A stretch of DNA of 64,000 nucleotides, from assembly GCA_017302455.1 (NCBI GenBank), contig JAFLDO010000023.1, forward strand, positions 1-64,000, read 5' to 3'. Numbering within the stretch: position 1 is the stretch's first letter; each line of letters starts with the position of its first letter. The translations under genes were made by a program, and so were the position numbers. Positions 1 through 16,131 of the stretch are shown here, piece by piece. The notes beneath the pieces are model-generated. The model saw only the letters and a program-made list of their open reading frames with translations, was not told the origin of the DNA and ran no database searches. The DNA is from Accumulibacter sp. (GTDB lineage: Bacteria; Pseudomonadota; Gammaproteobacteria; Burkholderiales; Rhodocyclaceae).

Positions 1-2604
1 GACGCCGGTCAACGGGTAGCGCCCGGAATCGTGGGCGAACAGGCTGGCCGCCTCGGCAATGCGGCGGGCAACGATGAAGTCGGCGTGCAGGGCCTGCTCG
101 GCGACGTTCGGCGGCGTCATTCCCTGCGCCGCTTCGACTTCCGGATAGAGCGTGTGCAGCAGCATGCCATCGCGAAGCAGTTCGATGCGCCGGCCGCGCT
201 CGGCTTTGTGCGGTGCTTCGGCGATCAGCGGGCTGCGGCTGGCAAAGAATTCCTCCTCCTGCAGCTTGATCCGTTCCCATGGCGGGTTACCGAGCAATAC
301 ATCGAAGCCACCCTTCGCCCGCACCTGCGGAAAGGCCTGCCACCAGTGAAAGGCCAGTGCCGTTTGCGCGGCACTGGCGGCCTCTGCCGCGACGCCTGGG
401 CGCGGAGCGCTCCCGTTGAGCACCAGCCAGAGATCCTGAGTGGTCGGCACGCTCGCCATCGTCTGTGGCGCCTTGGGCAGGACGAAGGCGGCGACGAAAA
501 GATCGGCGGCCAGCCGGACGCGCGAGGCGGCCCTCTTCGCTTCGGCCTCGACAAACGCTGCGCGCTTGGCTTCGAGCGCGGCCAACGTGTCGTCGGGCAG
601 GGCGTCGAGCGCTGCGGCCTCGGGCGCGGCGTCGAAGCCAAGGGCAAGGTTGAAGGCGGCGCGCGTTTTCGCCTTCTCGATCGCCTTCAGGGCGTCGCGA
701 TTGGCCTTCCTGAGCGCGGTGACGACGGCCTTGTCGTCGCCGGAGAGCGCGTTGAAGGCCTTGTCGGGGATGCCGGCTTCGAGAATCACCGGGTCGAGGA
801 TGCCGAGCAGCGCGTCGCCGCAGCGCAGGTGGTGGTCGAGGAAGGTCAACGGCCGGTCGGGAGTGTAGGCTTCGAGCCAGAGCGCGGTGCGGGCAAGTTC
901 GACGGCGAGCGGGTTCTTGTCCACACCGTAGATGCAGTGGGCGACGACGTCGCGCAGCGCGTGGCGGTAGTCGGCCGGCAGCGGGTTGCCGTCGGTGGCT
1001 GACAGGCGGGCGACTTCCTCGGCGATGCGGCGGGCGGCGGCAAGCAGGAAGTGGCCGGAACCGCAGGCCGGGTCGCAAACGCTCAGTTCGAGCAGCGCCT
1101 GCACCGGCCGCTGCGGGTGGGTGGCCAGCGCTTGCGCGATCACCGGGTCGAGCGCGCTCTTGATCAGCTCCTGCACCAGGCTGTCGGGCGTGTAATACGA
1201 GCCACTGAGCTTGCGGGCGTTGCCCTTGGTGCTGCCACCCGCGTGCTCCTCCGCGTCGCCGATGAAGCCAAAGCGGCGGACGCTGGCGCTCAGGCTCAGT
1301 TCGGGTACCAGTTCGAGCAGGCTTTCGTAGACGCTGCCGAGTTCCTCGGAATCCATGTCGCGGTAATTGACGCGCGACAGCGCGGCGCCGTCGCGGAAGA
1401 AGCAGAGGCCGAAGAGCGCGCTGAGCAGCGACTGGTTGTCGAGCTGGGCGGCGTCGAGGTCCGCGCATTGCGCGGCGTCGAAGAGGCCACCGAGCGCCGG
1501 CAGGCCAAGCGCTGGCTGGCCACCACCGAGGCCGGCGAAGGTGATCGAGAGCGCCTGCCAGAGGTCGGCATGGCGGTCGTAGCTGCGCCGCCGGGCGGCC
1601 AGGTGGCGCAGGCGGGCAAGGCTGTAGCCGGCCTGGTAGCGGGCGCGGGCCTCGGCGCCGGCGTCGGGCGCGAAGACGAGTTCGCGGTCTTCGATGGTGG
1701 CGAGAAAGATGAGGCGATAGACGAGGCGCAGGAGTTGCTCGAAGTAGATCTGGGTGCCCAGCTCGCCGCTTTCGATGCGGCGGCGCAACTCGCCGTTGGC
1801 CGGATGCGCGAGAAAGCCGCTGCCGAGCACGCGCAGGGCATTGGCGACGCCTTCGCGCAGGCGGTCGCGAACGCGGATGCCGTCTTCCTGCGCGGTGTTG
1901 CGCCAGTGTTCGAGCGGGCAGTCGGCGGGGTCGGCGCCGGCCTGGCCGAAACGCGTGGCGTGGGCGAGCAGCCAGAGCGCGGCGAAATCGGGGTAGAGGC
2001 CTTCGGCGAAGATCGCTTCGAGGTCGGCCTCGATGTAGGCCGGCCGGGTGAGGCTGGCGTTGTCGCGCAGGACGCGCAGCTTCAGGCCGTTGCTGACGAC
2101 GGCCCACAGCACGGCGTGGCTGGCGTTCAGATACTCCTGGGCGAGCAGGAAGGGCGAACGGCGGCGCGTACCGTCGCCGTGCCGGCTGCCCGGCTTGTCG
2201 AGCGGCTGGTCGTGCGCGGCGAAGACGAGCGGCACGCGCCCTTCGCCGGCGGCGCAGCCGATGGGGAAGCTGCGTTCGCCGACGGCGACCTGGCTGACAC
2301 GCTTGAGATCGGCAAAGCCGAGTACCTGGCGGCAGAAGGGTTCGACGAAGTCGCGGCTGTTGGCCCAGGGGTCGCGGTCGCTGCGTTCGCGGCGGGCGGC
2401 GAAATCCTGCCAGAGGTTCTGGGCGATCTTCCAGTAGCGGCCGATCTCTTCGCGCAGCTTGAGACCTCGCGGGATGTCGTAGTCGGCCTCGGACTGCGCG
2501 GCGGCTTCGAGGTGGGCGATCCGGTTGAGGAAATCGGGCGCCAGCAGGCCGCCTTCGATGGTCAGGGCGGTGAAGGCGAGTTCGGTGCTCGAGCGGCGGG
2601 CCAT
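1..2604 (-). CDS. Eco57I-type adenine DNA methyltransferase of a defence operon (partial, 3' end outside window)
   Basis: N6-adenine DNA methyltransferase expected to mark host DNA so that the neighbouring helicases spare it. The leftward frame is open for 868 codons from the ATG at 2604 and leaves the window without a stop. The SAM-binding motif I is DPACGSGHF (residues 511-519) and the catalytic motif IV is NPPW (773-776), preceded by VLLG; both lie in the same frame. A long N-terminal half precedes motif I, as in large Eco57I-like or DISARM DrmMI enzymes of roughly 1000-1300 aa. The start is 13 nt after the stop of the AAA ATPase gene, so the two are probably co-transcribed. Family assignment is solid. 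Its role as the modification arm of this cassette is inferred from context. The C-terminal target-recognition part is not visible, so a type IIG fusion cannot be excluded. Confidence 0.85.
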   Translation of the reverse strand, partial: MARRSSTELAFTALTIEGGLLAPDFLNRIAHLEAAAQSEADYDIPRGLKLREEIGRYWKIAQNLWQDFAARRERSDRDPWANSRDFVEPFCRQVLGFADLKRVSQVAVGERSFPIGCAAGEGRVPLVFAAHDQPLDKPGSRHGDGTRRRSPFLLAQEYLNASHAVLWAVVSNGLKLRVLRDNASLTRPAYIEADLEAIFAEGLYPDFAALWLLAHATRFGQAGADPADCPLEHWRNTAQEDGIRVRDRLREGVANALRVLGSGFLAHPANGELRRRIESGELGTQIYFEQLLRLVYRLIFLATIEDRELVFAPDAGAEARARYQAGYSLARLRHLAARRRSYDRHADLWQALSITFAGLGGGQPALGLPALGGLFDAAQCADLDAAQLDNQSLLSALFGLCFFRDGAALSRVNYRDMDSEELGSVYESLLELVPELSLSASVRRFGFIGDAEEHAGGSTKGNARKLSGSYYTPDSLVQELIKSALDPVIAQALATHPQRPVQALLELSVCDPACGSGHFLLAAARRIAEEVARLSATDGNPLPADYRHALRDVVAHCIYGVDKNPLAVELARTALWLEAYTPDRPLTFLDHHLRCGDALLGILDPVILEAGIPDKAFNALSGDDKAVVTALRKANRDALKAIEKAKTRAAFNLALGFDAAPEAAALDALPDDTLAALEAKRAAFVEAEAKRAASRVRLAADLFVAAFVLPKAPQTMASVPTTQDLWLVLNGSAPRPGVAAEAASAAQTALAFHWWQAFPQVRAKGGFDVLLGNPPWERIKLQEEEFFASRSPLIAEAPHKAERGRRIELLRDGMLLHTLYPEVEAAQGMTPPNVAEQALHADFIVARRIAEAASLFAHDSGRYPLTGV

Positions 2605-2617
2605 GGGGGTTCCCGGT

Positions 2618-4156
2618 TCAGTTGGTTCCTGGCGCGGCAAGCCAGCGCTGGTAGTCATTGAGGTCAACACAGACATAGCCGCGAGCCTGCAAGGCCTGCC
2701 GTTCAGCGACCGGAAAATCCGGGGCGTAGAGCGCACGTTCCGGCTGCCAGCCCTTGAAGCGACGCCCGGTCGCCGTCGCGAGGAAGTCGTCGACGTGCTG
2801 CCCGAAGGTGGTCAGCGCGGCCGGGGTGTGCTTCGCCGCAGCGCGCTTGCAACTGCCGAAGCGGACACGCCGGTCGTCTTCGTTGACGGCGACGATATCG
2901 ATCTCGACCAGACGCGCGGCATCTCGGGGACGGTTCCAGTAACCGTGGACCATGTCGGTCAGCGGGAAGTCGCCGGCCCCGCGCCGCGAGGCTTCGGCCA
3001 TCAGCTTGCGGACCATGCGCTCGAAGGTGGGGCCTTCGTGGTTTTCGAGACGAACCGCGCCGATCTTCAGCGCCTGCGCCAGCGGCTGCACGCGCGCGGC
3101 CTGTACCGCGGGTTCGATGGCGGCAAGCCAGGCGGCGAGGAAGTTGTCGCCGATCTGGTAGCGGGCCTGGCGGCTGCCGGCCTGGGCAAAGACCGGGCTG
3201 AGGCGCTCGACGAGACGGTAGCGGTCGACCAGCGTCGCCAGGTAGGTGGCGAAGGATCGGCTGTCGCCGAGGCTCTCGGCGTAGGCGGCCGAGAGCTGCT
3301 GCTGGGCGCAGGGCTGCTGACGGGCGAGCAGACGCAGCAGCGAGACGCCGGCGCCGCGCAGTTCGCGCAGGAACCAGGTACTGGCCTCCTCGACGAGCGG
3401 CGCGCGCGCCGACAGGAACAGGGTGTCGATGATACGGTCCGCTGCGCTGTGGTCATCGGCCGCGAAGGTGCCCTGGTAGGCGCAATCGCGGTAGAACTTG
3501 GGGACGCCCTCGAAGACCGACCAGAAGGTCAGCCAGTCGCGCGGGCTGTCCAGCCCCTGATCGGCGAAGACCTGGAAAAGGGTGGCGAAATCCCAGTGGT
3601 CGAGGTTCAGGCGATCGGTCACGCGGGCATAGAGCGGCGAGCCGCGATCTTCGAGGAGCGCTGTCATTTCAGTGTGGATCGAGCCGAGCACGAATATGCC
3701 GCCATGGGCCGATCCGGTGAGCGTATCGACTTCCGCCTGCAGCAGCGACGTGAAGGCGGACAGCGCCTTGCGGTTGAAATACTGGAACTCGTCGATGACG
3801 ACGATGATGCCGGCCCGGCAAAGCGCGCCAATGGCACGCACCATGTCGGAAAAGCGGCGCAGCTTGTCCGTCACGACGCTGTCCGGCAGGCGTCCCGGGC
3901 TGGCATCGGCAAACGCGGCGAGCGCATCCGTGAACACGGCGACGACATCGCGTTCGTCGCTGTCGGGAATCTGCACGTAAAGCGCGCCGGCCGCGCCGGT
4001 TCCGCCCTGCGTTTCAAGAAGCGCCTCGCGGATCAGCGAAGTCTTGCCGATGCGGCGGCGACCGCTGATCGCGCAGAAGAACCAGCGGCCCCGGGTCAGG
4101 AGCAGCTTGATCGCCGCCAGCTCGTCGCGACGACCGTAAAATTTCCAGGATGTCAT
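2618..4156 (-). CDS. AAA ATPase with DUF234-like (PD-(D/E)XK-type) C-terminal domain
   Basis: Predicted 512-aa STAND/archaeal-type ATPase whose biochemical role is unknown. The chosen ATG (4156) begins MTSWKFYGRRDEL, the usual FxGR-[DE]-EL opening of the family; an upstream in-frame ATG would add 32 residues from an AT-rich, promoter-like stretch. Walker A is GRRRIGKT (about 32-39) and Walker B is VVIDEFQ (about 119-125). Near residues 417-437 there is EIDIVA followed by FGSCK, the ExDxV...xCK signature of DUF234, which resembles a degenerate Holliday-resolvase-type nuclease core. The gene lies between the SNF2 helicase and the methylase genes, with a 213-bp gap upstream and 13 nt downstream. 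Members of this family also occur as stand-alone genes, so it may be an inserted accessory or a genuine regulatory or effector subunit. Confidence 0.8.
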   Translation of the reverse strand: MTSWKFYGRRDELAAIKLLLTRGRWFFCAISGRRRIGKTSLIREALLETQGGTGAAGALYVQIPDSDERDVVAVFTDALAAFADASPGRLPDSVVTDKLRRFSDMVRAIGALCRAGIIVVIDEFQYFNRKALSAFTSLLQAEVDTLTGSAHGGIFVLGSIHTEMTALLEDRGSPLYARVTDRLNLDHWDFATLFQVFADQGLDSPRDWLTFWSVFEGVPKFYRDCAYQGTFAADDHSAADRIIDTLFLSARAPLVEEASTWFLRELRGAGVSLLRLLARQQPCAQQQLSAAYAESLGDSRSFATYLATLVDRYRLVERLSPVFAQAGSRQARYQIGDNFLAAWLAAIEPAVQAARVQPLAQALKIGAVRLENHEGPTFERMVRKLMAEASRRGAGDFPLTDMVHGYWNRPRDAARLVEIDIVAVNEDDRRVRFGSCKRAAAKHTPAALTTFGQHVDDFLATATGRRFKGWQPERALYAPDFPVAERQALQARGYVCVDLNDYQRWLAAPGTN

Positions 4157-4369
4157 GAATTCGTTTTGTGTAACTTTTTTTACACTACAAAGTCTAGCGC
4201 GAAAATCTCTTATAAAACCGCTGGTTGCGCGAAAATTCCGGGACAGCGGCAAGCCCCCGGGGCGTGATCCTGGTCCGTCAAATTAAGGATGGCGATCAAT
4301 GCTTAACGCTACAGCGACCCGAAATCCCAATGAATTCATCATCTTGATGTGTCCGGATTGGCTGTCGCG
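4157..4369. promoter_or_regulatory. AT-rich gap with repeats upstream of the AAA ATPase gene
   Basis: This is the only sizeable gap inside the leftward defence operon. It contains an inverted repeat GTGTAA/TTACAC (4168-4173 and 4180-4185) directly in front of the ATPase start, and a direct repeat gcgcgaaaat at 4197-4206 and 4227-4236, exactly 30 bp or about three helical turns apart. The composition is clearly more AT-rich than the flanking genes. A separate promoter and operator for the ATPase-methylase pair is the simplest reading. No convincing -35/-10 pair could be fixed. Confidence 0.45.
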
Positions 4370-7210
4370 CTACGCCGGCACGAGCACCAAGACCCCCATC
4401 ACGTCGACCGGCAGGCTGGGCGTGACGCGGTATTCGCCGCTGCCGCGAGCGGCCTCGCGCACGCGGCGGTGGTCTGCGAGCAGCGCCTGGGCACGCTGGC
4501 GGGCCAGGTTTTCGAGAGCGGGCTGCCAGGCCGGCAACTGGTCGAGAAAATGCCGCAGGTGATGGTCGCGCAGCGGCGGCGGCATGTTGCGTGCGGGTTC
4601 GGCGTCCAGCAGCGCGCGCACGCTGTCGCCGGCAAGCAGTTCGCCACCTTCGGGGCCCGGCAGCGCGACGGTCACCGTTTCTTCGCACAGCAGCAGGCGC
4701 GACTGCTGGCGGTGGGTGACGTTGAGCTGGTGACGCAGGCGTAGCAGGAGGACGGCGGTGCGGGCCGGCACGGCTGCGGTGAAGATGGCGCCGGCGCGGG
4801 CGACCCTAGCGGCGTCGGCATCGGCCGCGTGATCGTCGAGCGCCTGTTCGAGCAGGTGGTCGGCCAGGCAACTGACCAGCGGATGCGTGCGGTGGATGAA
4901 CACTGCGCCGGGGGCCGGCGGCTGGTGGAAATCGATGCGCAATGTGCCTTCCAGGGCCTCCCCGCCCAGGCGCTCACGCAGGGCGGCGGCGTGCAGGCTG
5001 CCGATGTGCAGTTTCCAGTGGGCGGCCGTGGCCTTGGTCACGGCTTCGAGTGGCGCGCCAAGGCGAGTGGCGGCGCGGCGGACGAAGCGCTCGACATCGT
5101 CCTCGCCGCCGAGCACGGCGAGCGTCTTCCGCCATTCGGGCAGGACATCCTCGGGTTTGAGGCGGCGCTGCGCAAACAGGGTGCGGTTGCGCGATGCGCG
5201 CTCCCGCGCCGACTGCCAGGCGGTCTCGATCGCCAGCGCCGGCTCGCCGAAGTCGAGCGCGCGCTGCGGCGAGGTGGTGGCCAGGCGGCCCTGGCGCAGC
5301 AGCACGGCGCCGACCAACGCCTGGGTGAGCCGGCCTTCGTCGTCGGGCATCGGCACGAGGACGCCGAGTTCCTTGCGGATGCTCTCGGCCTTTCTGAGAA
5401 TGACATGCAGCACGGCGCCGTCGACCGGATTGTCGCGCCCGTACAGCATGGTGGTGCGGACTTCGCGCGCCTTCTGGCCGAAGCGGTCGACGCGGCCCTC
5501 GCGCTGCTCGTGGCGGGTCGGGTTCCACGACAGGTCGTAATGGACGACAGCGGTGAACAGGTTCTGCAGGTTGACACCTTCGGAAAGGCAGTCGGTGGCG
5601 ACGAGAATGCGCTTTTCGGCCTCGCCCATGGCGTCGACCGCAGCTTCACGCTCGGAGGCGGCAAACTCGCCGGTGATGGCCTGCACGAGGTGGCTCTTGT
5701 GGGCCTTGCGCAGCGCGTCGGCGACATAGTGCGCGGTGGCGATGTAGCGGCAGAAGACGACCGGCTGGAAGCCGGCGGCGGTCAGTTCTGCGAGATGTTC
5801 GAGCAGGCGCTTGAGCTTGGGGTCCTGGCCGGGGCCGGCGAGCGCCTCGGCTTTGGCGATGAGTTCGCTGAGGAGCTGACTGTCCTCGGTACAGGCGGCA
5901 GGTTCGATGTCCTGGGTGCTCAGGTCGTCGTCGGCACCGTCGAGGACGCGCTCGCGCCCCTGTGCCTCGGCTTCCTCGAGGCTTTGCCCCTGATCTTCGA
6001 GAGTATCGAGCGAGCCACCGGCGAGCCGCGTGCGCAGGGCATTGACCGCCGCCGCCGGCGACGAGGAAATGCAGCGCAGCAGCGCCAGCGCCGCCCACCA
6101 GCTCATGCGCTGGCGCATGGCGCCCTGGCCCTCGGCGCGCTCGACCAGCGTTCGGGCATAGGACAGAACCTCCTCGAACAGGCCGCCCCAGGCGCCGGTG
6201 AGCTGGTAGGTGATCTCGGCGGTGAGGCGCTCGGGGAAGACCTGGCGATCCTGCCATTCCTCGATGTCCGGCCGGCGGCGCTGGACGAAATGGCGGGCGA
6301 GCTGCTCGCGCAGAGGCTGGCGGCTGCCGGCCGCGGCGTCCTTGAGTTCACGGAACGATGGGTGCAGCAGGCCGAGCAGGTTGAAGAAGGCTTCCTCGTC
6401 GCCTGAGTGCGGGGTAGCGGTGAGCAGGATCAGGTGCCGGTCGGGATTCTCGGCGAGGCCCTTGAGCAGCGTGTAGCGCTGCTGGCGCCCCTGGCCGCTG
6501 AAGGTACAGGTGTGCGCCTCGTCGACGATGACGCACTCCGGGCAGGCGCGCTGGAACTCGTCACGGCGGCGGTCGGACTTGATGTAGTCGAGACTGACCA
6601 CGGTATGGGGGTAGGCCTCGAAAACCGACTGGTTGGCCGGCAGGCCGCGTTCGAGGCGGGCGGCGGTGCTGCTGCGCACGACCACGGCGTGGATGTGGAA
6701 GCGCTGCTGCAGTTCGCGCTGCCACTGCTCGCACAGGTGGGGTGGACAGAGGACCGTCAGCCGGGAAATCTCGCCACGGTCGATCAGTTCGCGAACGATG
6801 AGCGCCGCTTCGATGGTCTTGCCGATGCCGACGTCGTCGGCAATCAGCAGGCGCACGACTGCCTGCTTGAGTGCCATCAGCAGCGGCACGAGCTGGTAGG
6901 CGCGCGGCTCGACGGCGATGTTGCCGAAGCTGCGGAACGGGCCGGCGCCAGTGCGCAGCTTGAGTTGCAACGCGTCACGCAACAGTTGCCCGGCGGCGTG
7001 GTTGGAAGCCTCGGCGACGGTCGGCCAGGGAAAGCTCGCCGGCGTCACCGGCTGCGGCTCGATCGGCAGGTAGATCAGCGTCGCGTCGTCTTCGGCGGCA
7101 CCGAGCGCGCGCAGATGCAGGGTATCGCCGTCCGACTGCGGCAGGACGATCCACTCGCGGCCGCGGGCGGCGACGAGGCTGCCGGGTTGAAAGCTGACTT
7201 GGGAGTTCAT
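4370..7210 (-). CDS. SNF2/RapA-family helicase, DISARM DrmD-like
   Basis: 946-aa superfamily 2 ATPase expected to translocate on double-stranded DNA. Motif I is ADDVGIGKT (124-132), motif II is VDEAH (DEAH at 230-233), motif III is LLTATPHSG (262-270), and the second RecA lobe ends in HEQREGRVDRFGQ (567-579), the SNF2/RapA form of motif VI. About 360 residues follow the helicase core, as in DrmD proteins, which are long SNF2 proteins of class 1 DISARM. The start lies 9 nt after the stop of the giant helicase gene, so the two are certainly one transcription unit. Family membership follows directly from the motifs. The DrmD label rests on length, domain layout and the adjacent DUF1998 helicase and methylase, and a profile search should confirm it. 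Confidence 0.85.
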   Translation of the reverse strand: MNSQVSFQPGSLVAARGREWIVLPQSDGDTLHLRALGAAEDDATLIYLPIEPQPVTPASFPWPTVAEASNHAAGQLLRDALQLKLRTGAGPFRSFGNIAVEPRAYQLVPLLMALKQAVVRLLIADDVGIGKTIEAALIVRELIDRGEISRLTVLCPPHLCEQWQRELQQRFHIHAVVVRSSTAARLERGLPANQSVFEAYPHTVVSLDYIKSDRRRDEFQRACPECVIVDEAHTCTFSGQGRQQRYTLLKGLAENPDRHLILLTATPHSGDEEAFFNLLGLLHPSFRELKDAAAGSRQPLREQLARHFVQRRRPDIEEWQDRQVFPERLTAEITYQLTGAWGGLFEEVLSYARTLVERAEGQGAMRQRMSWWAALALLRCISSSPAAAVNALRTRLAGGSLDTLEDQGQSLEEAEAQGRERVLDGADDDLSTQDIEPAACTEDSQLLSELIAKAEALAGPGQDPKLKRLLEHLAELTAAGFQPVVFCRYIATAHYVADALRKAHKSHLVQAITGEFAASEREAAVDAMGEAEKRILVATDCLSEGVNLQNLFTAVVHYDLSWNPTRHEQREGRVDRFGQKAREVRTTMLYGRDNPVDGAVLHVILRKAESIRKELGVLVPMPDDEGRLTQALVGAVLLRQGRLATTSPQRALDFGEPALAIETAWQSARERASRNRTLFAQRRLKPEDVLPEWRKTLAVLGGEDDVERFVRRAATRLGAPLEAVTKATAAHWKLHIGSLHAAALRERLGGEALEGTLRIDFHQPPAPGAVFIHRTHPLVSCLADHLLEQALDDHAADADAARVARAGAIFTAAVPARTAVLLLRLRHQLNVTHRQQSRLLLCEETVTVALPGPEGGELLAGDSVRALLDAEPARNMPPPLRDHHLRHFLDQLPAWQPALENLARQRAQALLADHRRVREAARGSGEYRVTPSLPVDVMGVLVLVPA

Positions 7211-7219
7211 TGGTTGCGC

Positions 7220-10200
7220 TCAGTGATCGTTGCTGGGGCCGAAAAGACCCGCATGCGCAGTGAAGATTTCAGGCCAGCGCGCCTGTTCCTTGGGGAAGCG
7301 CACGACATAGTGGCCGGACGCCGCCAGCGCGCGGTTGATCGCTTCGTCCCGTTCGCGCTGCGCCGCTTCGTCATGCTGCGGGCCGTCGATGTAGATGGCG
7401 GCCTTCCAGTCGGCGTAGAAGAAATCGGCGCAGGTGTTGCAGTCGGGGATGCTCTCCTGGCCACGGTCCGGACGCCGATAGCCGTGGCGATCGACATGGG
7501 CAAGCCAGGCCTGCTCGAGGCTGCTGCCGGAGAGGCGGGCAAGTTCGTCCTCGTGCCGCTCCGGCGTGCGGCCGAAGGTCCCCAAGCGGCCCTGCGCGCG
7601 AGTCAGGCGGCAGAGGATGTCGAGCGCCTTGCCTTCGTTCGCTGCATCCTGGCGGTCGATGACGGTGTGATCGGGCTGGTTGTAGTACGAAAGCAGGCAT
7701 TTGTAGCAGCCCGCTTCACAAATCGGCTTGCCGGCCGCGTCGACATCCTGGACGAGAGTTTCCCGCTCCCAGAGGCCGTCAGCCGGGCGCTGGTAGTGCA
7801 TGATGCGTAGCGCCTCCTCGGCGACCCTGGCGAGGGCCGCCGGCTCCGAAGCGAGACGAGTGAGCACCCCCGCCCCGCCCTCGGCCGATTCGTAGAGCAG
7901 GATGGCCTGGCGGTTGTCGCGGCCGGGCAGCGGTTCGGCCATCAGCTCGCTCTCCTCGAGCTGGTAGACGGCCTCGATGCCGCGCTTGAGGGCGTATTGC
8001 AGCGTCGCCATCGTTGCCGCCTCGAACGTCTCCGGCGGACGGACGATCAGCACGTTGCGGCGATCTTCGACATAAGGAACGATTTGCTGCGGCGGCGTGC
8101 GGTCGGGCGGCGCGTCCGGTTCGGGTTCGCCGCTCTCCTCGGCACCGCCGACCCAGTGGCCGGTGACCGGGTTGATCATGAACCCGAGGATGCTTTTGTC
8201 CTTGCGCCGCCGCCAGCCGAAATTCATTCGCCAGACGGTGGCAGCCGGCCCGTATTGGAGAGTGAGTACGGTCTCGGCACCGTCGGCAAGATGACTGTCG
8301 AGACGCTGCAGCCGGCCATCCTGCTCGGCGAACTGGATGGTGGTCTGCATCTCGTAACCCTGCCGTACCCGCTCCTCCTCGTTGGCGGTGATTCGCTCCG
8401 CGCGCCGCGTCGAGACGTTTTCGATGCGGTAGAGGTCTTGCACTTCCCTGGCGTCGGCCAGCGGCGCATTGCACGACACGCAGCGGTCGGCGTCGCGCTG
8501 ACTGCGGAAGTGGCCATAGCCGCAGGCCGGGCAGATACGCGCGACTTCGGTGGTCAGACGGGCGCCCAGGGCGACCTGATCGTCGCCCGAGACGCCGAGC
8601 ATGGCACGCGTGACACGGTACTGGCTGCCTTCGTGATAGATGAGGCTGTAGGGACCGAATTCACCGAGGGCGAGGAAACGTGGGCGCGTCAGGAAGTTCT
8701 CGCGGCCGATCTTGCCCCGGCGCGCCGGGATGTAGGCCATCAGCGGCAGACGCGGGAAATTGTAGCCGGGGAGGAAACCCTGGCTGGCCAGGTAGCGATA
8801 CGTGTAGAAGTCGGAATTGGCGCTGCCCGATTCCTGCAGGAGCAGCGATTGCTGGCGGAAGGCTTCGTCGTGCCGCTGCTTGGCGTCCTTGCGCTCGCGC
8901 TCGCTGGCCGCGGGGTTGTTCATCACCCGCTGGTTGATCTCCATCTGCCGCTTGGTAGCCGTGAACAGATCGCGCCAGCGATCAAGCGCCGCGTTGAACG
9001 CGGCAAAGGCACGCGCAAATACGCGCTCGGCGAAGTGTTCGTCGTACCAGGGCGCTTTCTCGGCGGTGAGTTCGCCAGCCAGCACGGCGAGAATGCTGAG
9101 GCCACGTGCGTGGGCGCGGCGCTGTGGCGCATCGGCATCGAGGGACTGGCGCAGATGTTCGGCGAGCGGCGCCTGCTCGGCGTTCATGTCGAGCAGGCCG
9201 CGAATGCTCTTGTCGAGCTTGACGCCGGTTTCCGCCAGCCAGACAGCGTGCAGGTGGCTCTGGATCAGCTCGCGGTTGGCCAGGTCGAGAGTCGGCGGAT
9301 TGACCTGTCCATGGACCATGCGCACGGGATCGCGGAAGAAATACTGGTCGTGCGGCGACTGCGCGGCGCAGTAGGTAATGACCAGCGCCGGCTGGCCGGC
9401 GCGCCCTGCCCGGCCGCTGCGCTGGGCATAGTTGGCGGGTGTCGGCGGCACGTTGCGCAGATAGACGGTGTTCAGCGACGAGATATCGACGCCGAGTTCC
9501 ATGGTCGGCGAGCAGAACATTACCGGCAGCCATTCGAGCGGTTTGCCGGTCTTCTCCAGCCATTCGTCGCGGTCCTTGCGGGTGAAGCGGAAGCGGGCCT
9601 CACGTTCGAGGCGATCGTCCTGTTCGACCTGGGCCGTATGCTCGCGCGCCTCGAAGTCGAACAGGCGGTGGGCGGGGTTGGCGAGGAGGCCGGCGATGTT
9701 GGCGTAGAGTCCCCGGAAGAAGGCGTTGTCACTGGCACCGCGCGCACTCTGGCCATCGCCCAGTCGCCAGACGATGGCGCTGCCGTTGAGCTGGTAGCCG
9801 GTCATGCCGAACTCGGTCTCTTCGGCGACGACGAGGCCATAGGTCTTGGCCGCCTTGAGCAGCGCGGCGATGATGTCCTGGTAGTGCTCGTCCCTGATGC
9901 GGGCGGCGTGCGGGTTGTCCGCTTCGTCTTCTTCGCGCCAGGTGGCGGGCTGCTTGAGCAGGCGGCCGAGCCTGGAGCGAGCGCTGCCGGAAACGAGGTA
10001 TTCAACGTTGCGGCGATCTTCGTCGAGTGGCCGACTGACGGTGATGAACCAGCTCGCCGCCACCGGATGTTCATCCTCGGTGAAGCCCCAGGGCTCGCGC
10101 AGGTTGGCGTAGCTCGCGGTCTTGAGGCGATCGAGCTCGGCACGGTCGAGGTAGCGCGAGGCCAGGCAGAGCCCCTGACGCATCGACTCGAACACCATAT

Positions 10201-12526
10201 CGAGAATGCGCTGGCGCACCGTCGGCGAGGCGGCTTGCAGGACGAGCGGCGCCTCCTGCCACATTTCGGCGTCGTTCGACAGTTCTTCGAGGTCGCGGTA
10301 GGCGATCCGCAGCAGGCCGAGTTGTTCCAGGTTCGGGTTGTTGAAGCGCCAGCCGCGCCGCAGGTCGTAGTAGATTCGGTAGCCGAGAATGTTGCGCAGC
10401 GTGTCCTGGACCAGACGCCGGGCGTTGCCGCGCACGTCCGGATCCTGCATGAATTCGGCGCGCACTCCGGGGTCGTCGCGGTCGAAGCCGAGCGCAGCGA
10501 ACACGGCGCCGGCTATTGCACTTTCATCGAGTTCCTGTTGGGCGCTGGCCTGCACGGCTGCCAGCAACGCCGCCCGCTGCAGGAGGATCTGCAGGAAATC
10601 GTTGAAATGCCCGACCTGCAGCGCGGCATCCTGGCGGTTGTCTGAAAAGCCGAGCACCTTCTTGGCTTCGGCGCTCAACTGGGCGTCCTGCTCGTAGAGA
10701 TAGCGCAGGGAAGCGAGGGTCAGCATGGTGGTGGCCGAGCTACGACCTTCGCCGGAGAGTGCAGCCAAGCGCAGCGAATCGCGCCCGGCCGTGTGATGGA
10801 TCACTCCGCAGTTCAGGCAAAAGCCGAAGCTGCCAGGGATGTACCAACCAGGGACCCCGCCATTGTCCAGCGCACCCTCGCCGTTGAGCCGGACGTGGAC
10901 CGGCTGCCGACGCCGATAGGTCGATTTCAGGCGGTAGTTGTCCCCCGAACGCTCCAGCCAGGATTCCGGATAGCGGTCGAGAGTGTCCTCCCAGATCGCG
11001 GAGGTGTCCGGCATGAAGAAGCCGTTCCTGACCTCCTCATCCTCATGCGACCGGTCTTCGATGTTGCGCGGCGAGAACTGGCGGCCAAGGGGAGTATTCT
11101 CATCCCAGACCGGAAGGTATTCCTGACCGCAATCCCGGCAGAAATGCACCGAGTAGAGCTTGCGGCCCCGGTCGCCGGGAACGTACTGGCTGCCATCGAG
11201 CGTCAGGAAACGTTTGCCGGGTGCATCCAGCGTGGTGAACGCCTTGCCGCCGCCGGAAATGAACTGGTGCAGCTTGAAGGCAAACAGGCTGCGTCCGCCA
11301 TCCTCCGGCGGCTTGTCGGTAGTGTGATACGCCAGGAGCAGGAAGTCGGCGAGTATCTCGCGCGCCGTCCCTTCCGGAATGCCTGCATCAGAGGCGAGGC
11401 GGGTACCTGCAGCCTCGAGGGTCATTGGCCTGGCCCGGCGCCACTTGCCCTCCTCCCGCGCCAGACCGAGAGTGAGTTCGGTCCACACGGCCAGCGGGTG
11501 CGTCGCCAGGTCGGAGAATGCAGGATTCTCGGGCAGGCCAGTCCGAATTGCCGTCGTCAGGGAAGCACGGATGTGTTCAACGAGGAGCTTCTCCGGGGTA
11601 ATACGTTGCAGCGTTTCGGTGATCACATGCGCGGGCGAGATCGTGGTGCCGAACAGCCGCGTGGCGACTTCGGCAACGACGACATTGCGATCGGCCTCCG
11701 TGCCTTCCGTAGCCATCGTGGCTGAGGTGCCGATGCACTGCAGCCGATCGGTCAGTGCCTCACGAACCCGTCGCACCAGTAGGGCGACGTCGGCACCTTG
11801 GCGTCCGCGGTAGGTGTGCAACTCGTCGAGCACCAGAAAGCGCAAGCCTTTGGCGTTGCGGATGACGGCCTTGTCCTTTTCGTCCTGACGGGTCATCAGG
11901 AGTTCGAGCATCATGAAATTGGTGAGCAGGATGTCCGGCGGATGCGCCGCCAGGCGCTGGCGCTCCTCATCGTCCTCCTGGCCCGTGTAGCGGCCGAAAG
12001 TCACCGGTGGGTGATCCCCGTAGTCGCCCAGGAACTTGCCGAGTTCCTCGAGCTGGCTATTGGCCAGAGCGTTCATCGGGTAGATGACGATGGCGCGAGT
12101 CCGCGGCGCTGGGTCGGCTGCCTTTGCCTTGAGGATGGCATCAATGATCGGGATGAAGTAGGCGAGCGATTTGCCCGAGCCGGTACCGGTGGTCAGGACG
12201 TAGCTGGTACCCGTTTGAGCGAAACTGATCGCCTCCTCCTGATGCCTGAAGAGTTTCAGCGATACACCGGCCGAACTGACGCTCTTGCCCCCGCGGAAAA
12301 TTCGCGCGCACTCCGGGTGAAGACTGCCGGCCGTGACCAGTTCCTCGACGCTGTGGCCCGCCTTGAAGTTCGGATTGACCTGGACGAGCGGTGCAGGCCA
12401 GTAGCGTTGCGACTCGTAAGCAGCGGCAACGAAGGACGCAATGTCCTCGGACTTGATGCGCGTGAAACTGCGAGTGAACTGGCTGTATTCACCGACCAGT
12501 TTCTCCCTGAACTCGAAGACGTCCAT
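7220..12526 (-). CDS. Giant DEAD/DEAH-like helicase with DUF1998/MZB cluster and C-terminal nuclease-like domain (DrmA-DrmB fusion or DruE-like)
   Basis: 1768-aa protein, probably the core defence enzyme. The ATG at 12526 (MDVFEF) is preferred over one 48 nt upstream because the extra residues look non-coding. Motif I TGTGSGKS is at about 113-120, motif II DELH at 234-237, and motif VI QRSGRAGR at about 1035-1042, so some 750 residues separate the two RecA lobes. CxxC pairs occur at about 463 and 570 (CRDC, CLNC) and a CPAC/CVSC zinc ribbon at about 1332-1352. CEAGCYKC at about 1603-1610 is the DUF1998 hallmark found in DISARM DrmB and Druantia DruE. The tail (about 1660-1760) contains YIDGPQHD, RD and YVVRF, resembling DUF559/Vsr-type PD-(D/E)XK nucleases. 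It is the first gene of the leftward operon. The helicase-DUF1998 call is firm; nuclease activity is inferred. Confidence 0.85.
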   Translation of the reverse strand: MDVFEFREKLVGEYSQFTRSFTRIKSEDIASFVAAAYESQRYWPAPLVQVNPNFKAGHSVEELVTAGSLHPECARIFRGGKSVSSAGVSLKLFRHQEEAISFAQTGTSYVLTTGTGSGKSLAYFIPIIDAILKAKAADPAPRTRAIVIYPMNALANSQLEELGKFLGDYGDHPPVTFGRYTGQEDDEERQRLAAHPPDILLTNFMMLELLMTRQDEKDKAVIRNAKGLRFLVLDELHTYRGRQGADVALLVRRVREALTDRLQCIGTSATMATEGTEADRNVVVAEVATRLFGTTISPAHVITETLQRITPEKLLVEHIRASLTTAIRTGLPENPAFSDLATHPLAVWTELTLGLAREEGKWRRARPMTLEAAGTRLASDAGIPEGTAREILADFLLLAYHTTDKPPEDGGRSLFAFKLHQFISGGGKAFTTLDAPGKRFLTLDGSQYVPGDRGRKLYSVHFCRDCGQEYLPVWDENTPLGRQFSPRNIEDRSHEDEEVRNGFFMPDTSAIWEDTLDRYPESWLERSGDNYRLKSTYRRRQPVHVRLNGEGALDNGGVPGWYIPGSFGFCLNCGVIHHTAGRDSLRLAALSGEGRSSATTMLTLASLRYLYEQDAQLSAEAKKVLGFSDNRQDAALQVGHFNDFLQILLQRAALLAAVQASAQQELDESAIAGAVFAALGFDRDDPGVRAEFMQDPDVRGNARRLVQDTLRNILGYRIYYDLRRGWRFNNPNLEQLGLLRIAYRDLEELSNDAEMWQEAPLVLQAASPTVRQRILDMVFESMRQGLCLASRYLDRAELDRLKTASYANLREPWGFTEDEHPVAASWFITVSRPLDEDRRNVEYLVSGSARSRLGRLLKQPATWREEDEADNPHAARIRDEHYQDIIAALLKAAKTYGLVVAEETEFGMTGYQLNGSAIVWRLGDGQSARGASDNAFFRGLYANIAGLLANPAHRLFDFEAREHTAQVEQDDRLEREARFRFTRKDRDEWLEKTGKPLEWLPVMFCSPTMELGVDISSLNTVYLRNVPPTPANYAQRSGRAGRAGQPALVITYCAAQSPHDQYFFRDPVRMVHGQVNPPTLDLANRELIQSHLHAVWLAETGVKLDKSIRGLLDMNAEQAPLAEHLRQSLDADAPQRRAHARGLSILAVLAGELTAEKAPWYDEHFAERVFARAFAAFNAALDRWRDLFTATKRQMEINQRVMNNPAASERERKDAKQRHDEAFRQQSLLLQESGSANSDFYTYRYLASQGFLPGYNFPRLPLMAYIPARRGKIGRENFLTRPRFLALGEFGPYSLIYHEGSQYRVTRAMLGVSGDDQVALGARLTTEVARICPACGYGHFRSQRDADRCVSCNAPLADAREVQDLYRIENVSTRRAERITANEEERVRQGYEMQTTIQFAEQDGRLQRLDSHLADGAETVLTLQYGPAATVWRMNFGWRRRKDKSILGFMINPVTGHWVGGAEESGEPEPDAPPDRTPPQQIVPYVEDRRNVLIVRPPETFEAATMATLQYALKRGIEAVYQLEESELMAEPLPGRDNRQAILLYESAEGGAGVLTRLASEPAALARVAEEALRIMHYQRPADGLWERETLVQDVDAAGKPICEAGCYKCLLSYYNQPDHTVIDRQDAANEGKALDILCRLTRAQGRLGTFGRTPERHEDELARLSGSSLEQAWLAHVDRHGYRRPDRGQESIPDCNTCADFFYADWKAAIYIDGPQHDEAAQRERDEAINRALAASGHYVVRFPKEQARWPEIFTAHAGLFGPSNDH

Positions 12527-12793
12527 GTTTGCCTTGTTCTTGGTTATTTTCTCGGCGCAGCGGCAGCGACCCACTGCTTACACCAACCCAATCGCACGCT
12601 CTGGTCAACCCGCCGCAGCATACGGACACGACCCGCTCCCTGTTCGGCAGCCTCAAACTCCCCAAGTCGGCTCTTTTCGTGAGCGAGCCTTTGACCGCAA
12701 TCCTTCAATGGCGACGGCTTGCATGCCATGATACAACCTCGGGAGCTCACCTATCGAGCCTGTAAAGCCATACATCGTCCTCGGATGTCAGCC
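12527..12793. promoter_or_regulatory. Divergent regulatory region between the helicase operon and the WYL regulator gene
   Basis: This 267-bp gap separates two divergent starts and must hold the promoters of the defence operon and of the WYL gene. A weak AAGG Shine-Dalgarno precedes the leftward ATG at 12526. No strong inverted repeat was found, so the operator expected for the adjacent HTH-WYL regulator could not be placed. Confidence 0.45.
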
Positions 12794-13774
12794 ATGAGCA
12801 GCCTGCAACGTATCTACCAGATCGACCAGATTCTCGGCGCTCGCCACTCGGTCACGCGCGCGGAACTGCAGGAGCGCCTGGGCGTTTCCTGGGCGACGCT
12901 GAAGCGCGACATCGCCTACATGCGCGACCGCCTGAACGCCCCGCTGATCTTCGACCGCCACCTGGGCGGCTACCGTTTCGAGACGGCCGAGCAGCGGGTT
13001 GGCCCGCAGTATGAACTCCCCGGCCTGTGGTTCACCGCCGAGGAAATCCATGCGTTGCTGACCATGCAGCATCTGCTCTCGAACCTCGACACCGGCGGCC
13101 TGCTCGGACCGCAGATCCAGCCTCTGCTCGCTCGCCTCACCGGCCTGCTCGGCACGGCCGACAACCCGGTCGAGGAAATCCAGCGCCGCATCCGCATCCA
13201 GACGGTCGGCGCGCGGGATTTCCATCTCGACCACTTCCAGGCAGTAGGCTCGGCCCTGTTGCGGCGAAAGCGCCTTATCATCCGCTACCATGCACGCGGC
13301 ACCGACGCAGTGACCGAGCGGGAAATCTCGCCGCAACGCCTCAACCACTACCGCCACAACTGGTATCTCGATGCCTGGTGTCATCTACGCGATGGCTTGC
13401 GTGCCTTCTCGGTCGACGCCATCGAACACGCGGAAATCCTCGACAAACGCGCCAGGGATGTTGCCGACAAGCGCCTCGACGAGGTGCTCGGCTCCGGTTA
13501 CGGGATCTTCGCGGGCGACCGGGTCTCCTGGGCTGTGCTGCGCTTCACGCCGGAACGAGCGCGCTGGGTCGCCTCGGAGCGCTGGCACCCGAAGCAGGAA
13601 AGCAGGCTCCTCGACGACGGCAGCTACGAGCTGCGCGTGCCCTATGCCGATGATCGCGAATTGATCATGGACATCCTCAAGTACGGCAGCGACTGCGAGG
13701 TCGTCGAACCGGCGGCGCTGCAGGCAAGAGTGGCGAAGGAGTTGCGGCGCGCGCTGGAAAATTATCGCGGGTAG
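12794..13774 (+). CDS. HTH-WYL domain transcriptional regulator
   Basis: 326-aa regulator divergent from the helicase operon. The N-terminus from MSSLQRIYQIDQIL is a DeoR/HTH_11-like winged helix (RAELQERLGVSWATLKRD being the recognition region). The central WYL domain shows NWYLDAWCHLRDGLRAFSVD with the characteristic W-Y-L and RxFxxDxI features, followed by a C-terminal WCX-like segment. Two ATGs at 12785 and 12794 are possible; the second was chosen because it begins at the conserved helix. Regulators of this architecture (BrxR/CapW type) commonly repress phage-defence operons and sense nucleic acid. Repression of the neighbouring operon is therefore likely but unproven from sequence. Confidence 0.85.
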   Translation: MSSLQRIYQIDQILGARHSVTRAELQERLGVSWATLKRDIAYMRDRLNAPLIFDRHLGGYRFETAEQRVGPQYELPGLWFTAEEIHALLTMQHLLSNLDTGGLLGPQIQPLLARLTGLLGTADNPVEEIQRRIRIQTVGARDFHLDHFQAVGSALLRRKRLIIRYHARGTDAVTEREISPQRLNHYRHNWYLDAWCHLRDGLRAFSVDAIEHAEILDKRARDVADKRLDEVLGSGYGIFAGDRVSWAVLRFTPERARWVASERWHPKQESRLLDDGSYELRVPYADDRELIMDILKYGSDCEVVEPAALQARVAKELRRALENYRG

Positions 13775-14530: not shown

Positions 14531-14845
14531 ATGACTGCCTTGCTGTTCAGCACCCCGCACGAACTTCAGCACCAGCTCGGTGAGCGCCTGAAGCGCTTGC
14601 GTTTGAGTCGGAACCTGGATCAGCGCACCACGGCCGAGAAGGCCGGCATTTCGGAGAAGGCCCTGCGCAATCTCGAAACCGGCCGAGGATCGACCGTCGA
14701 GACGCTGCTACGCGTACTGAAGGCGCTCGATTCACTGCAAGGGATCGACCTGCTCGCGCCCGAAGCCACCGTCAATCCGCTCGACCTGCTGCGCCAGTCC
14801 AAGCCAGCGCAGCGCGCCCGCCGACGTCCGACGGCGAGCGGATGA
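14531..14845 (+). CDS. hipB: HipB-family antitoxin, XRE-type repressor
   Basis: 104-aa DNA-binding protein. An HTH_XRE domain covers about residues 10-70, with RLKRLRLSRNLDQRTTAEKA and GISEKALRNLETGR forming the helix-turn-helix, followed by a short basic tail (RARRRPTASG) that could contact HipA or DNA. Its last codons overlap the hipA start by 4 nt (ATGA), so the two are translationally coupled, which is the standard order of hipBA modules. It should bind and neutralise HipA and repress its own promoter through the inverted repeat at 14472-14498. The assignment is clear from the domain and its partner. Confidence 0.85.
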   Translation: MTALLFSTPHELQHQLGERLKRLRLSRNLDQRTTAEKAGISEKALRNLETGRGSTVETLLRVLKALDSLQGIDLLAPEATVNPLDLLRQSKPAQRARRRPTASG

Positions 14846-16131
14846 ACACCCCGGTCATCGAAATTCGTATCTGGGGCCAGCGCGTCGGCGCGGTCGCGCC
14901 CGATCCGCGCCTCGGCTGCTATGTGTTTGCCTATGACCCCGCCTGGCGACGCAGCGGCATCGACCTGGCGCCGCTGACCATGCCCGTGGGCGATCCACGC
15001 CCGAGTTTTGCCTTCCCCGAACTGTCCGAAGCCAGCTACAGACGCCTCCCCGGTCTGCTCGCCGATGCCTTGCCGGACGATTTCGGCAACGCCTTGATCG
15101 ACGCCTGGATGAGCGCGCGCGGCGTCGAGCGGCGCGCCGTCACCACCCTCGACCGCCTGGCCTACATGGGCCGGCGCGGCATGGGTGCGCTCGAGTTCAA
15201 GCCGGCGCGCGGCGCCCACCGCGAGAGCGCCGAACCGCTGGCGATGAAGAGTCTGGTCGAAGCCGCACGCCAGGTCATCCACGCCGACCTGTCCGGCGAC
15301 GTCCAGGCACAGGCCGCGCTCGCCAACATCATCCGCGTCGGCACGTCGGCCGGCGGCGCACGCGCCAAGGCGGTCGTTGCCTGGAATCCACTGAGCAAGG
15401 AAATCCGCAGCGGGCAGTTCGACGCCGCCCCCGGCTTCGAGCACTGGCTGCTCAAGTTCGATGGTGTCGGCCACGACTCGGAACTGGGCAGCAGCGCCGA
15501 CTACGGGCGCATCGAGTATGCCTACCACTTGATGGCGAGTGCCGCGGGTATTCGCATGTCGCCCTGCCGCCTGCTCGAAGAAAGCGGTAGGGCGCACTTC
15601 ATGACCCGCCGTTTCGACCGCGATGTCGTCGATGGCGCCACGGTCCGGCACCATGTGCAGACGCTCTGCGCCATGAGCCATCTGGACTACAAGCAGCGCG
15701 CCACGCACGCCTATGCACAGCTGTTCATGACCATCGCGCGGCTCCGGCTCGGCGACGAGGCACTCGGGCAGGCGTTCCGGCGTATGGCCTTCAATGTCTT
15801 GGCGAAAAACTGCGACGACCATACCAAGAACTTTGCCTTCCGCCTGAAGCAAGGCGGGAACTGGGAACTGGCGCCGGCGTACGACGTGACGCACGCGCAC
15901 AACCCAAGGGGCCAGTGGACCTACCAGCACCTGCTGAGCGTCAACGGCAAGTTCAGCGGCATCACCCGCAGCGACCTGCTCGTCGAGGCCGAGCGTTTCG
16001 GTGTCCGCCGCCCGCTCGAGGCCCTCGCCGACGTGGGCGCGGCGCTTGATGCCTGGCCCGAGTTCGCGCGCCAGGCCGGCCTCGCCGAGCAATCGACCAC
16101 TACTATCCGTAGCGACTTCGAGCCGTTATGA
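14842..16131 (+). CDS. hipA: HipA-family serine/threonine kinase toxin
   Basis: 429-aa protein kinase-like toxin. In E. coli HipA phosphorylates glutamyl-tRNA synthetase and triggers persistence; the target here is unknown. The N-terminal subdomain (about 1-110) is followed by the glycine-rich loop TSAGGARAKAVVAW (about 168-181), then the kinase core EYAYHLMASAAG and FMTRRFDRD. The catalytic segment CDDHTKNF has D326 and N330, and YDVT supplies the metal-binding D348. All expected kinase residues are present, so the toxin looks intact. It is coupled to hipB by an ATGA overlap. Placement beside a restriction-like operon suggests a defence or abortive-infection role, but this is context only. 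Confidence 0.85.
   Translation: MNTPVIEIRIWGQRVGAVAPDPRLGCYVFAYDPAWRRSGIDLAPLTMPVGDPRPSFAFPELSEASYRRLPGLLADALPDDFGNALIDAWMSARGVERRAVTTLDRLAYMGRRGMGALEFKPARGAHRESAEPLAMKSLVEAARQVIHADLSGDVQAQAALANIIRVGTSAGGARAKAVVAWNPLSKEIRSGQFDAAPGFEHWLLKFDGVGHDSELGSSADYGRIEYAYHLMASAAGIRMSPCRLLEESGRAHFMTRRFDRDVVDGATVRHHVQTLCAMSHLDYKQRATHAYAQLFMTIARLRLGDEALGQAFRRMAFNVLAKNCDDHTKNFAFRLKQGGNWELAPAYDVTHAHNPRGQWTYQHLLSVNGKFSGITRSDLLVEAERFGVRRPLEALADVGAALDAWPEFARQAGLAEQSTTTIRSDFEPL

Follow-up and report, generated by a model that had tools for sequence, protein, structure and literature searches.

An Accumulibacter ARMADA Type I operon carries an extra DUF234 ATPase gene at a junction filled by other genes in related loci

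Gene content of the locus

We analysed a 64,000-nucleotide stretch of Accumulibacter sp. DNA (GenBank assembly GCA_017302455.1, contig JAFLDO010000023.1, positions 1 to 64,000; hereafter the window), whose first 13,774 nucleotides hold an operon that is ARMADA Type I, a defence system with an already known core, plus one extra gene. An initial annotation had described a leftward run of a 1768-amino-acid (aa) helicase, an SNF2 helicase, an AAA/DUF234 ATPase and an Eco57I-type methylase with a divergent WYL regulator, and the open reading frames (ORFs) and Pfam matches of the window bear this description out. On the minus strand, the run begins with a YprA-family, ArmC-like helicase (7220..12526; 1768 aa from the ATG at 12526, or 1784 aa from a GTG as the ORF 12574-7220) that combines DEAD/DEAH and DUF1998/MZB domains with a Vsr/DUF559-like C terminus. 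It continues with an SNF2/RapA-type, ArmA-like helicase related to BrxHII and DrmD (4370..7210; 946 aa), a predicted STAND-type AAA+ ATPase with a DUF234 C-terminal domain (2618..4156; 512 aa from the ATG at 4156, or 544 aa from a TTG as the ORF 4252-2618) and the N-terminal part of an Eco57I/PglX-type, ArmB-like adenine DNA methyltransferase (1..2604 from the ATG at 2604, within the ORF 2736-1). This last ORF runs off the left edge of the window, where C43, one of 126 contigs of the assembly, ends; the methyltransferase is therefore truncated. Pfam reports DEAD, Helicase_C, MZB and DUF559 on the first helicase, SNF2 on the second, ATPase_2 and DUF234 on the ATPase, Eco57I on the methyltransferase, and WYL and WCX on the divergent protein; the sequence motifs are GTGSGKS and a DEAD-type box (helicase), GIGKT (SNF2 protein), GRRRIGKT (ATPase) and DPACGSG with NPPW (methyltransferase).

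The core of the operon is ARMADA Type I

As described in the main text of Bell et al. (bioRxiv 2025, PMC12458937), ARMADA Type I encodes a YprA-family helicase, a BrxHII-like helicase and a PglX-like methyltransferase in that order, with helicase and DUF1998 in one protein that ends in a predicted active Vsr-type nuclease. The window has the same order, its methyltransferase being cut by the contig end, and likewise encodes a single-gene helicase with DUF1998 and a Vsr-like C terminus. In a 27-row helicase tree, the window falls on the Type I side within a 20-row clade (SH-like approximate likelihood ratio test, SH-aLRT, 97), a placement that carries long-branch warnings and in which the reference type labels were assigned from gene order rather than from the ARMADA paper's own reference proteins. 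Gene order, helicase tree and the Vsr/DUF559-like C-terminal domain together therefore assign the operon to ARMADA Type I. The window differs in adding the DUF234 AAA+ ATPase between SNF2 and methyltransferase genes and the divergent WYL gene, neither of which is mentioned for ARMADA Type I in the examined text of PMC12458937, its supplements aside. A named system thus shares the gene order of the window except for this one ATPase. The earlier suggestion of an unnamed subtype or system gives way accordingly, while its picture of DISARM-like and Druantia-like parts in a locus distinct from both is sound; the main text of PMC12458937 terms ARMADA the 'missing link' of DISARM and Druantia.

The Type I clade also contains operons carried on plasmids in Roseomonas mucosa and Caballeronia (two helicases, then a large third protein), Deinococcus radiodurans MP1 (methyltransferase split over two ORFs) and Hydrogenimonas (helicase and SNF2, after which the record ends). 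Four helicases from operons of ARMADA II order (L122, L127-L129) form a separate clade with support of 100; ARMADA Type II has the same three core families as the window but arranges them as SNF2, methyltransferase and helicase, followed by a UvrD helicase with a RelE-like domain. E. coli DruE, encoded next to a protein that reaches 2457 bits with DruH, stands apart in the tree. A second Druantia-type row (L130) matches DruE models, and its neighbour matches none. On the E. coli IncY plasmid CP057056 (L121), Druantia III genes (DruH and DruE by PADLOC) are immediately followed by genes annotated as helicase and methyltransferase in an ARMADA II-like order.

With class 1 DISARM, the window shares a DrmD-like helicase and a DrmMI-like methyltransferase by PADLOC, but DISARM has split drmA and drmB and usually the PLD nuclease drmC, whereas the window has no separate drmA and drmB. 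No drmC was found in the window, where the contig ends, nor among the few scanned downstream ORFs of the related loci L007 and L118; the 'no PLD nuclease' of the initial annotation does not equal 'no nuclease', because the helicase C terminus carries a likely nuclease domain that had been overlooked. With Druantia, the window shares a large YprA helicase of DruE size, and the nearest kin of ARMADA helicases are reported to be those of Druantia. However, the match of this helicase to DruE models is partial (299 bits to DruE1 and 286 to DruE3, compared with 2180 for a true DruE3), and neither DruH nor another Druantia partner (DruA-D) was found among the five window proteins scanned. DEAD, Helicase_C and MZB all lie on one 1784-aa ORF (MZB, the DUF1998 zinc domain, at 38.5 bits against a cut-off of 24.2), so helicase and OB-CON-DUF1998 parts form a single gene; this DruE-like fusion had been taken as peculiar to the locus and is in fact usual for ARMADA Type I.

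PADLOC-DB 2.0.0 (2023) returned the labels DruE, DpdE/DrmD, DrmMI and PDC-S27, with no ARMADA name among the matches, and none of the proteins reached NCBIfam cut-offs; annotation models of 2023 scatter one ARMADA operon across Druantia, Dpd, DISARM and candidate labels. The labels do come from both DISARM and Druantia, as the initial annotation would have it, but a new hybrid of the two systems is scarcely credible given the partial DruE match, the missed NCBIfam cut-offs, and a gene order and helicase tree that both already indicate ARMADA Type I. The SNF2 protein scores 710 bits, nearly full-length, to a PADLOC model named DpdE (PDLC02853), as many bits as the SNF2 protein of L118, and 200 bits to NCBIfam DpdE, below the cut-off of 500. 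We rejected a Dpd system on that missed cut-off and because other Dpd proteins were unseen, for which reason PDLC02853 is probably a misnamed model.

The C-terminal 130 residues of the YprA-family helicase (7223..7612, minus strand) are likely a Vsr/DUF559-like nuclease domain of the PD-(D/E)xK type, as predicted from alignment, Pfam and a profile comparison with known structures. Across 39 aligned rows, the domain has invariant Glu, Pro, Gln, Asp, Asp-Gly and His positions; the DUF559 match is borderline (20.8, cut-off 20.6), and the structure search gave one weak match (3hrl, E 0.027). Two conserved CxxC pairs in the aligned region are candidates for the zinc-binding modules that ARMADA Type I helicases carry inserted in RecA2.

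Two core junctions hold many kinds of extra gene

A helicase scan of genome contigs gave 31 loci, and whole-genome helicase searches gave matches in 9 of 369 class genomes and 24 of 297 family genomes, counts to which the genome of the window itself and partial or other YprA proteins contribute. We tabulated 52 loci with a helicase match, of which 49 have the three core genes in order and both junctions readable; L008 and L109 (cut by contig ends) and L097 (no SNF2 match) fall outside. By selection, the SNF2 gene follows the helicase in all 49. Because the set stems from pattern-based scans and its loci are interrelated (L011 and L029, for example, belong to one metagenome-assembled genome, MAG), the junction figures are counts, not rates.

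The helicase/SNF2 junction measures 6-84 bp in 39 loci, while 7 loci have 571 bp or more; the remaining 3 (L089, L091 and L108) show 324-365 bp because their helicase matches end early, and these gaps were left uncounted. The SNF2/methyltransferase junction spans -55 to 49 bp in 38 loci and at least 577 bp in 11; one of the 11, the 3.5-kb gap of L085, is a transposon insertion, with a transposase and a methyltransferase piece, and we left it out of the slot genes, as we call the extra genes. An extra ORF is present in 17 of the 49 loci (one broken, one fused), always at one of these two junctions and in no locus at both.

The first junction is filled in seven loci. L017, L019 and L025 share a protein of 287 aa, conserved among them at 88-89%, that carries a HELGH motif and matches Peptidase_M78 at a borderline level. 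L026 has an alpha/beta-hydrolase extension where the slot gene would be, fused to the helicase in one 2130-aa ORF (6456-12848 of that locus), and L080, L083 and L084 hold further ORFs, which lack a Pfam match. At the second junction, we found a DUF234 ATPase in L006 and L034, an AAA_14/DUF4143 ATPase in L007, L012, L021 and L081, a PIN protein in L093, a PD-(D/E)xK protein (by PADLOC) in L095 and related 200-aa proteins in L092 and L111, the former without a Pfam match. The 16 unbroken slot ORFs form 10 groups, with no blastp links between groups at E<1e-3. The two filled junctions with their many gene kinds, the DUF234 ATPase inside ARMADA I and the swapped leader blocks described below are what this analysis adds; a DUF234 ATPase in ARMADA is undescribed in the literature searched, the supplements of PMC12458937 and the Payne et al. 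2024 preprint aside.

Two slot ATPases share one junction

The ATPase of the window matches PADLOC PDC-S27 over its full length (682 bits; residues 33-538 on profile positions 1-483 of 484). Among the 49 loci, its gene is intact in L034 (Dechloromonas sp. H13) and broken in L006, where a loss of 416 bp includes the Walker (ATP-binding) motifs. Protein searches gave relatives at 63-99% identity from metagenomes, and a search of another family (399 genomes) gave three matches, two of which (L118 and L119, at 68-70%) occupy the same ARMADA I junction and the third of which (47%) lies outside ARMADA; the L119 match (genome G737) was reported with one in-frame TAA. The four-gene order of the window, whose recurrence the initial annotation had proposed to examine, is therefore found again in L034, L118, L119 and, with the ATPase broken, L006. 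This high-identity DUF234 clade occurs at this junction only (five of five loci, counting the window), in a sample that is small and partly selected. In the window's own family, relatives at 43-46% occur in 8 further genomes of 297, and no ARMADA core was seen near them in stretches of 20 kb (one of 7 kb), save for a weak 28% SNF2-type match in L100.

The AAA_14/DUF4143 ATPase occupies the same junction as the DUF234 ATPase and matches PDC-S01 (176 bits). Full-length matches to it, at 68-99%, number six in the 297 family genomes, of which two (G578 and G544) lie inside ARMADA operons. Across 42 rows of the AAA_14 protein, Asp398 and Glu414-x-Lys416 never vary, so this protein keeps a nuclease-like triad that is partly absent from the DUF234 family. 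In a profile comparison of the two ATPases, the ATP-binding part alone aligns (83 columns, probability 74), and the DUF234 profile matches the AAA_14 protein weakly (E 0.007); homology of the two through a C-terminal nuclease, which we considered, is unsupported, as the alignment is confined to the ATP-binding part. The available text of PMC12988326 traces PDC-S27 and PDC-S01 to a 'guilt-by-embedding' study (the preprint of Payne et al. 2024) and treats them as single-gene candidates, mostly unvalidated; the embedding of such genes is thus not a new idea, and the slot finding offers leads for two common but mostly untested candidates.

Swapped leader blocks point to a probable replacement of the slot gene

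Mapped on a helicase tree of 53 rows, the three slot states (DUF234, AAA_14 or neither) require at least five changes over 50 scored rows. The nearest helicase relatives of the window are L006 and L034 (DUF234), then L007 and L012 (AAA_14). In a comparison with L007 (Ca. Accumulibacter conexus UW7) by 300-bp bins, identity is 79-92% for the two helicase genes of the window and 100% for the last five bins of methyltransferase DNA (about window positions 1-1400, to the contig end), with an unrelated slot between them. This is a mosaic left by (recent) recombination, or else the MAG assemblies have a mixed stretch in common.

The slot gene of the window is preceded by a 213-bp leader with two blocks on the minus strand. 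Block X (4157..4239), immediately 5' of the ATPase ATG, has an inverted repeat, GTGTAA-N6-TTACAC at 4185-4168, that is also found in L034. Block Y (4283..4306), probably a relic leader, has a palindrome near TTAAGCA-N10-TGCTTAA, with one mismatch in the window, and this palindrome lies directly before the AAA_14 ATPase in L007, L012 and L081. The order is Y, X, DUF234 gene in the window, and X-like block, Y, AAA_14 gene in L007. X against the first L007 block and Y against the second each aligned better than any of 2000 shuffles, whereas the crossed pairs gave no match, with 438 and 430 of 500 shuffles scoring equally well. Elsewhere, shuffles were as good in 9 of 500 cases for L012 (one palindrome mismatch, weaker overall), 1 of 500 for L021 and 53 of 500 for L081, which has no alignment match yet carries the palindrome without any mismatch immediately ahead of its AAA_14 gene. 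If one mismatch is allowed, the palindrome occurs four times in 1,146,464 bases (L006, L007, L012 and L081), always in this junction; that of L034 has two mismatches.

Since each locus type keeps the apparent leader of the other gene with the order swapped, it looks as if the slot gene has been replaced in both directions, the window lineage having formerly held AAA_14 and the L007 lineage DUF234. Alternatively, the swapped blocks could be remnants of ordinary intergenic rearrangement that record no such replacement; few loci have both blocks (window, L034 and L006 in one order, L007 and L012 in the other), and block X has no detectable match in other DUF234 loci tested (500 of 500 shuffles as good for L118). 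We regard this alternative as unlikely, because the gene-adjacent block is the gene's own leader wherever visible (X in the window and L034; Y in L007, L012 and L081) and the block matches far exceed shuffles.

The slot ATPase as a candidate backup effector

We hold with moderate confidence that the operon is an ARMADA Type I operon whose SNF2/methyltransferase junction holds an additional ATPase gene, that its core is predicted to cut unmarked phage DNA, and that the ATPase is likely an exchangeable backup effector. In this model, the methyltransferase would mark the host chromosome and the core would spare methylated host DNA, while the two helicases would load on unmarked phage DNA and the Vsr-like domain at the helicase C terminus would cut it. 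Less surely, the slot protein, a predicted STAND-type switch ATPase, would be off in healthy cells and fire when a phage disarms or overruns the core, whereupon its PD-(D/E)xK-like C-terminal domain might damage some component of the cell. Given how varied the slot genes are, their products are probably not core subunits, and for the DUF234 ATPase a role as backup effector is probable. There are precedents for such an arrangement: EcoprrI keeps PrrC silent until the phage peptide Stp releases it (PMC2610378), and PD-(D/E)xK, PIN and other nucleases within BREX loci are described as auxiliary or backup effectors (PMC12839542). As predicted for the window, a toxic or nuclease gene lies there within or beside a restriction operon, but the protein families are others, and silencing by the core, established for PrrC, is a conjecture for the slot of the window.

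Several observations weigh against this model. In L006 the ATPase gene is broken and the core genes are still open, which may mean that the ATPase is dispensable or harmful, or that the MAG is misassembled. The ATPase C-terminal domain has Ser, Thr or Ala (85, 5 and 1 of 91 rows) at the usual PD-(D/E)xK Glu position and so may not cut. A BrxA-like domain is a common ARMADA trait according to PMC12458937, and the helical segment after RecA1 in a structural model of the window helicase (model predicted local distance difference test, pLDDT, 74) had no Foldseek match at E<=0.001. The methyltransferase is truncated, and genome searches for its remainder with the window part and with the C-terminal part of a relative gave other proteins only (31% identical, on contig C50). 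The sampled loci are not independent of one another. Finally, the phage tests in the available text of PMC12458937 concern ARMADA Type II alone, in which each of four genes was required for protection by deletion and defence was non-abortive, as tested in E. coli; we met no phage test of ARMADA Type I in the parts of the literature examined.

The slot gene could instead be an independent defence or toxin gene that rides in the operon for expression and spread and is functionally untied to ARMADA. We give this possibility a substantial chance, if short of even, and rate a plain passenger role nearly as likely as the backup effector. Nine DUF234 relatives at 43-47% lie away from ARMADA, several beside housekeeping genes, so this ATPase family can live alone, and no ARMADA core was seen in the stretches examined around the other four AAA_14 matches (68-81%; one contig only 5.8 kb). 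The slot gene also has its own leader and inverted repeat, unlike the tight core junctions, and PDC-S27 and PDC-S01 are counted as single-gene candidates (PMC12988326). Against it stands the high-identity DUF234 clade, which was found at this junction only, in a small and partly selected set of five loci.

That the ATPase is a working subunit, for example a loader of helicase or methyltransferase, with the four genes forming one machine, seems to us improbable. Its place is kept in all five loci, L118 and L119 have diverged from the window to similar degrees in helicase (65% identity), SNF2 (69%) and ATPase (68-69%), as if co-inherited, and ORC/STAND-type ATPases are core BREX parts in the available text of PMC12839542. 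Yet most ARMADA I loci lack the DUF234 ATPase (present in 2 of 49), the close relatives L007 and L012 hold AAA_14 instead, and one locus has the ATPase broken with an open core.

A more specific form of the backup-effector model, which we put forward tentatively, is that the junctions are dedicated fail-safe slots, in which the ATPase would guard the operon and kill or stall the cell once a phage disables ARMADA, with guards swapped in place and the old promoter left as a scar. If so, the order of scars would be a record of the phage counter-defences met. A slot for unrelated genes in a conserved operon makes it possible to address directly whether defence operons come with a built-in insurance.

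Neighbouring genes and decayed relatives

The divergent gene of the window (12719..13774, plus strand) encodes a helix-turn-helix (HTH)-WYL-WCX regulator by Pfam. Looking up to 5 kb upstream, we found a WYL gene in 4 of 58 loci: a fragment in L008, a gene encoded on the same strand in L028, and one copy each in L034 and the decayed L112. Many of the 58 loci offer less than 5 kb of upstream DNA, and a fifth, more distant copy is present in L025. As it adjoins ARMADA in few relatives, we rejected it as a core part and regard it as a local partner. Beside it are a HipB-like HTH gene and then a HipA-like kinase gene (14531-16131, plus strand), followed by a thiolase and other metabolic genes.

In L118 and L119, a 240-aa gene follows the methyltransferase, an HNH endonuclease by Pfam in L118, where a 675-aa protein with weak LmuB matches precedes it. 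Two operon ruins were seen in the same genus: L159 (G526:C1), which lacks a helicase match and has fragmented SNF2 and methyltransferase genes beside an interrupted AAA_14 gene, and L112 (G641:C4), which retains a WYL gene, one fragment of the helicase and pieces of AAA_14.

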